Part shown: one piece after another, positions 801-3,285 of the stretch
Layout: each line of letters opens with the position of its first letter
Numbering within the stretch: the first letter of the stretch is position 1
Source of the DNA: a virus
Virus record (IMG/VR): IMGVR_UViG_3300032213_000907
Span: 1-33,979 of that record
Strand: one strand, 5' to 3'
Length of the DNA stretch: 33,979 bases
Translations under genes and position numbers: made by a program
Notes under the pieces: model-generated
Database searches by the model: none
The model's input: only the letters and a program-made list of their open reading frames with translations
Told to the model about the DNA's origin: nothing

Positions 801-974
801 TTAATCCTTGTTTCTTTCTACGAGGTACGCCAGCACGCCCCCGTAGAGTTGATTTTGTACAACGCGGGCGATGTGATATTGAGTTGGGTCTTCAAGAGAA
901 GCCCAAAAGATTTGAGCATCTGTCAGTGTTAAAAACCCAACCCGTTCTTCTGTTACTGAACTTTGTGTCCCCAT
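801..974 (-). CDS. Small hypothetical protein between large terminase and portal (57 aa)
   Basis: This short leftward gene sits between the terminase stop (983-985) and the portal start (798) with almost no spacing. The translation begins MGTQSSVTEERVGFLTL and ends GGVLAYLVERNKD. It has a hydrophobic C-terminal half but no clear membrane segment. An ATG at 980 in the same frame would add two residues, but AAGGA at 984-980 fits the ATG at 974 better. I do not recognise the family. Short genes at this position are common in podovirus-like packaging modules, and tight coupling suggests co-translation with the portal. The gene call rests on the open frame, the SD and the perfect fit between two real genes. 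Confidence 0.7.
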   Translation of the reverse strand: MGTQSSVTEERVGFLTLTDAQIFWASLEDPTQYHIARVVQNQLYGGVLAYLVERNKD

Positions 975-982
975 ATCCATCC

Positions 983-3045: not shown

Positions 3046-3076
3046 TGGGAGGAAGGTGGCACTCCAAAGTTGACGG

Positions 3077-3150: not shown

Positions 3151-3270
3151 AGACGAGCAAAAAAAGACCCCCGGGGAGGGGGGTCAAAGGAGAGGCAACG
3201 AGAAGGGAATTGGTGTCCTGCCTTGAACATTAACGCAGGTTATCAGTCTCAGGCTTTCGCCACACCAACT
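3151..3270 (-). ncRNA. Predicted leftward leader/small RNA with three-way-junction fold
   Basis: A start about 7 bases after the -10 at 3277-3282 falls on 3270, exactly the 5' base of the outer helix. The outer helix pairs 3262-3270 with 3208-3216 (7 Watson-Crick pairs plus G-U and A-U). Directly stacked inside are a GGC-GAAA-GCC tetraloop hairpin (3252-3261) and a CCTGC/GCAGG hairpin (3217-3239), joined by a 12-base linker. About 20 unpaired bases follow, then a strong terminator ending at about 3159. There is no open frame. The product would be an RNA of about 120 nt, or the attenuated leader of the late operon. I do not recognise a known RNA family. The fold is by hand, but every helix is exact. 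Confidence 0.55.
3159..3185 (-). terminator. Intrinsic terminator of the leftward leader
   Basis: On the minus strand GACCCCC and GGGGGTC form a perfect 7-bp stem around a 6-base loop, followed at once by seven T. It lies about 85 bases downstream of the predicted late start site and about 115 bases before the small-terminase ATG, so late transcription from 3270 must read through it or start again. Confidence 0.85.
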
Positions 3271-3276
3271 TTGGAA

Positions 3277-3285
3277 ATTATATCA
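3277..3285 (-). promoter_or_regulatory. Leftward extended -10 promoter TGATATAAT
   Basis: The minus strand carries TG-A-TATAAT, a perfect extended -10 for sigma70. The -35 region is poor (CATGAC at 16 bases), as is common for extended -10 promoters. Three plus-strand promoters in this window share the same TG-n-TATAAT style, so host sigma70 polymerase is the likely reader. The start site coincides with the 5' end of the folded leader RNA. Confidence 0.6.

Follow-up and report, generated by a model that had tools for sequence, protein, structure and literature searches.

The virus record IMGVR_UViG_3300032213_000907 was analyzed over its full length of 33,979 bases (the window). Just before its terminase genes it carries a promoter (P1), a three-way-junction RNA module that we call Y5 and an intrinsic terminator, all on the minus strand (Table 1). 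Judged from comparison with related viral sequences, the RNA is almost certainly one allele of a modular system in which variable structured cores are held inside constant helical frames, either singly or in chains. P1, RNA and terminator form a complete predicted unit, a small non-coding RNA gene with a product of ca. 110 nucleotides (nt). The full interpretation, including this architecture, is that the module would be a swappable accessory RNA with its own transcription that acts in trans, which we consider probable with moderate confidence.

All parts of the unit had been proposed from the window sequence before, and they were recovered in the present analysis. The original prediction claimed a perfect extended −10, a three-way-junction RNA with its outer helix starting at +1 and a strong intrinsic terminator ahead of the terminase genes; each was located, and the phage-encoded RNA with its own promoter and terminator that had been put at about 120 nt came out slightly shorter. 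The distance from the −10 of P1 to the first helix base, G3269, is 8 nt, and the identical spacing occurs in 8 distinct sequences from close relatives, including those in which the site is empty. The Y5 module folds with a z-score of −3.06, with 1 of 200 shuffled sequences as stable, and its minimum free energy structure is the same as the centroid structure. Pair probabilities are mostly 0.95–1.0. When the terminator was included the folding z-score was −2.09.

A first pattern for the RNA core gave five matches of which four were unrelated. The Y5 core pattern found 29 loci besides the window, 30 in total, all with the same 61-nt module. These comprise 15 distinct sequences with a mean column identity of 95%. 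Outside the window Y5 lies directly behind the end of another type of module, the X type described below, wherever the upstream flank is present, and it occurs with many different neighbors and different downstream genes. Its frame GTTGG..CCAAC was found at +1 or right behind an X-frame end. In one locus (L101) the module is 100% identical to that of the window over 60 nt while the other aligning blocks are only 65–70% alike, which suggests that Y5 either is transferred from phage to phage or evolves under very strong constraint. Most of the sequence variation in Y5 falls on four junction bases (TGAGAC-NNNN-AACC), together with three loop positions. The junction bases, columns 25–28 of the module and 3245–3242 in the window, read TGAT, TGGT, TGGC, CGTC, CGGC, TCTC or TTTC between the invariant TGAGAC and AACC, and these four variable positions could be a specificity element. 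The recurrence of the same module with the same frames in so many loci also bears on the possibility that we are looking at a chance fold behind a promoter-like sequence. A z-score of merely −3.06 and the presence of three extended −10 sites in the window (TGNTATAAT, both strands) would be compatible with chance, but the homologues refute this explanation and we give it practically no weight.

Two frames alternate along chains of modules: an X frame (ACGCATGGGGATTG..CAGTCCCCAGCCGTGTTGG) and a Y frame (GTTGG..CCAAC). The 18-mer AGTCYCCAGCCGTGTTGG that ends an X-frame link has copies in at least 120 viral contig stretches. Nearly all copies have ACGCATGGRGATTG 30–110 nt upstream, and the core enclosed between the two differs each time. 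A GTTGG following the X frame opens a Y frame, CCAAC closes it, and often the next X frame follows. Simple sequence clustering gave at least 137 distinct X cores in at least 86 sequence families and at least 152 distinct Y modules in at least 96 families, all of these counts being lower bounds. In another group the frame is wholly changed, to AAGTATGAGGATTG..CAGTCCTCATACTTGTTGG, yet its two sides are still complementary. When 257 Gb of genomes were searched with the X-frame 18-mer there were nine matches. Eight of these bacterial matches lacked a constant 5′ frame and are consistent with chance. The single convincing match is a short contig of a Burkholderiales metagenome-assembled genome (L264); its chain is genuine, and the DNA probably comes from a phage.

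The X frame and the Y family that we call Y3 covary strongly at the RNA level. Among 149 distinct sequences the X-frame helix is built from G-C or A-T pairs with G-T intermediates, with two A-C mismatches in 298 cells. Family Y3 (GGGTTAGCGCC..CACTGCTTTATGTGAGC) was found in at least 120 stretches, and 81 distinct sequences were analyzed. Its helix A of 4 base pairs (bp) is paired in 88.6% of cases against 50.2% after shuffling (maximum 58.3%), with several pair types per position. The second helix, of 3 bp, is paired in 100% of cases against 92.4% after shuffling, and the exchanges include AT, CG, GC and TA. Compensatory changes are also present in module families other than Y3.

Near-identical phages swap modules in one slot. 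To describe this slot we gathered 80 relatives of the large terminase subunit (TerL), and 19 close relatives were retrieved via the block next to a second promoter, P2, which lies between the terminator and the terminase genes. The slot is bounded by '..ATAACTGATATAAT..CAAAG' on one side and 'TTCTCGTTGCC..terminator' on the other. Loci L084 (=L002) and L093 have P1 and the terminator with an empty slot; L002 shares 98% identity with the window in its flanks, and the 62-nt module is precisely missing. In L082 (=L003) the slot holds a different RNA with the same outer helix, GTTGGTGACAGC..GGGCCACCAAT, a third RNA is present in L091 and L006, and chains of several modules occupy the slot in L086, L085 and L098. 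The modules or chains of L082, L091, L006, L086 and L098 are inserted at exactly the same point. Alleles that retain P1 retain its spacing, and the terminator is kept in relatives in which the RNA is missing or substituted.

The original prediction interpreted the unit by analogy with the pR′-6S-tR′ region of phage lambda, as a late-gene attenuator in which transcription from P1 halts at the terminator and continues into the terminase genes only once an RNA switch or an antiterminator allows it. The likeness to lambda lies in the order of promoter, short RNA, terminator and late genes, which is exact in the window and is found in relatives too. This part of the parallel stands, while control of the late genes by antitermination through the terminator does not agree with the further observations. 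An attenuator requires that the late genes depend on read-through and have no later promoter, and a predicted promoter with an adjoining palindrome is found past the terminator (3116–3077). This P2 had been named in the original prediction as a rival promoter and is real as a sequence: TGNTATATT occurs at P2 as its sole copy in the window, and a −10 at the same place recurs across the readable relatives, including those that have neither P1 nor RNA nor terminator. As far as can be read from sequence, the late genes have an independent second promoter. The RNA is dispensable and can be replaced by another: in relatives with 98% flanking identity the stretch from this promoter to this terminator lacks an RNA or contains a different one. 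No antiterminator family was found among the PHROG matches of the scanned window proteins, a result to be read with the fact that the majority of small early proteins have no match at all and that the contig is possibly incomplete. Furthermore, chains at other loci precede genes that are not late genes, such as those for DUF5856-like proteins and repressors, and the same module families occur elsewhere in 5′ leaders that have no terminator. The lambda-type explanation is disfavored by the recurrence of P2, by alleles with an empty slot and by the absence of antiterminator matches, and we consider it unlikely.

Table 1. Predicted features of the RNA unit and the adjacent late region in the window
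Feature	Position	Strand	Basis or remark
P1, perfect extended −10 TGATATAAT of the RNA unit	3285–3277	−	sequence
Y5 module (window allele), three-way junction	3269–3209	−	fold, homologues
Y5 outer helix, 8 bp, GTTGGTGT/ACACCAAT	3269–3262/3216–3209	−	fold
GGC-GAAA-GCC hairpin of Y5 (GNRA mini-hairpin)	3261–3252	−	invariant in 15/15 distinct sequences
Y5 junction strand, 12 nt, TGAGACtgatAA	between the two hairpins	−	
CCTGC/GCAGG hairpin of Y5, 13-nt loop	3239–3217	−	stem invariant, 3 loop positions variable
Intrinsic terminator GACCCCCCTCCCCGGGGGTC-TTTTTTT, 7-bp stem with 6 GC pairs, then T7	3185–3159	−	closes the RNA unit
Palindrome GGTAGGAATCCTACC, directly 5′ of P2	3116–3102	−	block shared, unchanged or slightly altered, by most close relatives
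P2, extended −10 TGGTATATT, between terminator and TerS	3085–3077	−	sequence, recurrence in relatives
TerS-like gene, position of terminase small subunit	3045–2497	−	weak HEAT_2 match
Terminase large subunit (TerL)	2500–983	−	

The window has a divergent layout, with the late genes (TerS-like, TerL) on the left and the replication genes on the right. The palindrome GGTAGGAATCCTACC is a possible activator or repressor site for a phage late regulator. Just 5′ of the TerS start, at 3065–3046 on the minus strand, an element GGAGTGCC..TTCCTCC recurs in relatives; its GGAG can pair with CTCC, and it is possibly involved in translational control or a packaging site. On the other side of the unit, 5′ of P1, a C-rich block (CCCCTACCCCCCAGATTCCCAAATGGGTCCCCCTCCCGCC..CTACACCATGACTCACACAAATAAC, 3357–3286, minus strand) occurs in nearly all TerL relatives irrespective of the RNA and may be an operator, an origin or a promoter region for rightward transcription. 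An insertion of ca. 170 nt (810–979, minus strand) separates TerL from the next gene and is not present in L002, L003, L086, L091 and L098. It contains an open reading frame of ca. 55 amino acids as well as a hairpin of very high stability with the closing helix GTTGGG..CCCAAC (z-score −4.9), and may represent a small accessory gene or a further RNA module.

To place the chains in their genomic setting, the first gene past the chain was identified for 90 of them. TerS is the commonest class with up to 21 cases (17 matches to phrog_1482 and 4 to phrog_309); starvation-inducible, DUF5856-like proteins make up 7 cases, and the rest are small repressors, ParB-like proteins and more. The chains of L147, L167 and L169 close with an intrinsic terminator ahead of the gene, and other chains continue into the leader. 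Since terminated units and 5′ leaders without a terminator contain the same module families, a role in regulating one particular gene by termination is disfavored. In a sister clade of 33 loci, structured variable RNAs start 5–7 nt past the −10 of P2. This suggests that in the course of evolution P1 and P2 alike have served to start such RNAs, with the first base of the helix at +1. Such placement, 5–8 nt past the −10 at both promoters, and the occupation of the slot by many unrelated folds would also suit a cis-acting 5′ structure that shields leader RNAs from 5′-end-dependent decay, for which any stable fold would be adequate. In the window, however, the terminator lies between the RNA and the mRNA. 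The near-perfect conservation of Y5 over its 30 loci and the conservation of the Y3 loops exceed what a generic stem would need, and multi-module chains and tRNAs would be superfluous. We therefore regard a mere 5′ shield as quite unlikely. A match to the Betaproteobacteria-1 RNA of Rfam (RF02932) at L101:1079–1203 gives a hint to the host of that phage.

Some modules are predicted tRNAs or tRNA derivatives, and tRNA calls are concentrated at the chains. The Y modules of L160, L170, L192 and L234 match the tRNA family RF00005 above the gathering threshold. In L192 the acceptor stem is formed by the Y frame (GUUGGUG..CACCAAC-A), and the anticodon arm is replaced by a long insert. Chain regions make up 0.18 Mb of the 3.34 Mb of loci (5% of the bases) and hold 19 of the 27 tRNA calls, 13 of which are tRNA-Met (CAT), so that the density of tRNA-Met in chain regions is far above that in the rest of the same loci. 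A tRNA-Met (CAT) was seen as chain link or neighbor in L144, L168, L174, L215, L219, L224, L230, L233, L239, L241, L242, L247 and L252. The module of the window itself matched RF00005 neither at gathering score nor at E values up to 10, and is merely reminiscent of a tRNA in its acceptor-like stem and T-arm-like hairpin. A tRNA-like module in an X frame at L098:614–686 and in L209 received a four-base anticodon call (CAAG) from ARAGORN and is possibly a non-canonical or decoy tRNA. The X-frame cores of L162 and L223 have T-arm-like hairpins with GGGGGTTCGACTCCCCCC and gave sub-threshold matches to tmRNA.

The inverted CAAC..GTTGG sequences around modules, the precise insertions and the pervasive swapping raise the question whether the modules are selfish or recombinational cassettes, with the frames serving as integron- or retroelement-like recombination sites and the cores being of no benefit to the phage. 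Integron attC arrays have the consensus core sites GTTRRRY/RYYYAAC, and the frame GTTGGTG..CACCAAC misfits these, for which reason an attC array was rejected. The cores of X and Y modules moreover fold and covary, tRNAs serve as modules, and the units own promoters and terminators. Selfish cassettes are thus a very unlikely explanation.

The explanation that we prefer, a swappable accessory RNA acting in trans, would work as follows. A fixed slot before the late genes would hold exchangeable folded RNA modules under the control of P1 and the terminator, and the RNA would be transcribed in the early phase or when the phage switches to late expression. The frame may stabilize or protect the RNA or mark it for processing, and the module would then act in trans as an accessory RNA, its diversity reflecting conflict or adaptation to the host. 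A host target, e.g. a defense, RNA-modifying or translation factor, is possible and would explain why cores differ among near-identical phages. Several observations weigh against this interpretation. The slot is empty in close relatives, so the RNA is not essential. Its location beside the late genes could point to a role in cis. Taken together, the X cores fold with energies only modestly below those of controls (mean z-score −0.78 against −0.38, p 0.003), although a modest advantage is expected for junction-rich folds. Helix covariation among homologues, which the original prediction had named as a check, is strong for the X frame and family Y3 as described above and is missing in Y5 itself: its 15 distinct sequences have no compensatory changes. 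Since the inner stems of Y5 are invariant and helix changes are confined to the outer helix, where they are mostly G-U compatible, the fold of this module rests on thermodynamics, on frame homology and on these G-U-tolerant changes.

A wider form of the trans-acting interpretation is conceivable, though we hold it only tentatively: the modules might constitute a combinatorial arsenal of trans-acting, tRNA-framed RNAs that uncultured phages draw from a large common pool, exchange at fixed promoter-proximal slots and string into bead-like chains, each RNA neutralizing or reprogramming another host factor or defense. Near-identical phages provide natural alleles of the slot (an empty one, a single module, a different module or a chain), so that function can be tested directly by cassette swaps.

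To find out whether the system had been described before, sequences were compared with the 4227 families of Rfam at gathering score, with a permissive run at E values up to 10. The window RNA region matched no family at gathering score, the modules of the other scanned loci matched none but tRNA, and the permissive run on the RNA region gave chance-level matches only, in line with the earlier statement that the RNA matches no known family. When the RNA region, two chains and two single modules were compared by BLAST with 50,697 named phage records, no module was matched and there was only tRNA-Met similarity and chance matches; one module compared with plasmids was unmatched. A thiamine pyrophosphate riboswitch (CUGAGA), considered because of the junction TGAGAC, had no support from Rfam, and a hammerhead, considered for CTGATAA, was rejected since the cores were unfit and Rfam support was absent. 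The structured RNAs of aquatic bacteria and phages reported by Weinberg et al. 2010 (PMC2864571) are similar in kind, but Polynucleobacter-1 (RF01718) and c4 (RF01695) were unmatched at gathering score in the window and the scanned module loci. Open-access literature gave no matching description for arrays of structured phage RNAs, for the frame sequence or for late antitermination, and papers outside open-access text may contain one. By Rfam, named phage records and open-access text, the modular RNA system appears to be new.

Type III toxin–antitoxin loci such as ToxIN consist of a promoter, RNA repeats, a terminator and a ToxN-like gene, and the order of promoter, RNA units, terminator and gene is similar here. 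Identity with such loci was rejected because the modules differ mutually and the downstream genes are TerS (commonest), DUF5856-like proteins and repressors, not a toxin. The solitary CRISPR-repeat RNA anti-CRISPRs of phages (Racr) are likewise phage RNAs that resemble our modules in the trans action on host defense proposed here. The modules differ from them in having many folds in one frame, and no likeness to CRISPR repeats was seen, although none was specifically tested. Phage tRNA gene clusters, which include stable RNAs other than tRNA such as RNA C and D of T4, share with the chains the tandem arrangement of short structured RNAs and have tRNA-Met and other tRNAs among their members, whereas most modules in the chains are not tRNAs and combine hypervariable cores with frames that stay constant. 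The accessory genes that phages use in conflict with their hosts are known to encode proteins and to lie at genomic hotspots. If our interpretation is correct, the slot described here would be the RNA counterpart of such hotspots, one position taking dozens to hundreds of different framed RNAs, some of them tRNA-derived, and a large set of natural structured RNAs would be opened up.
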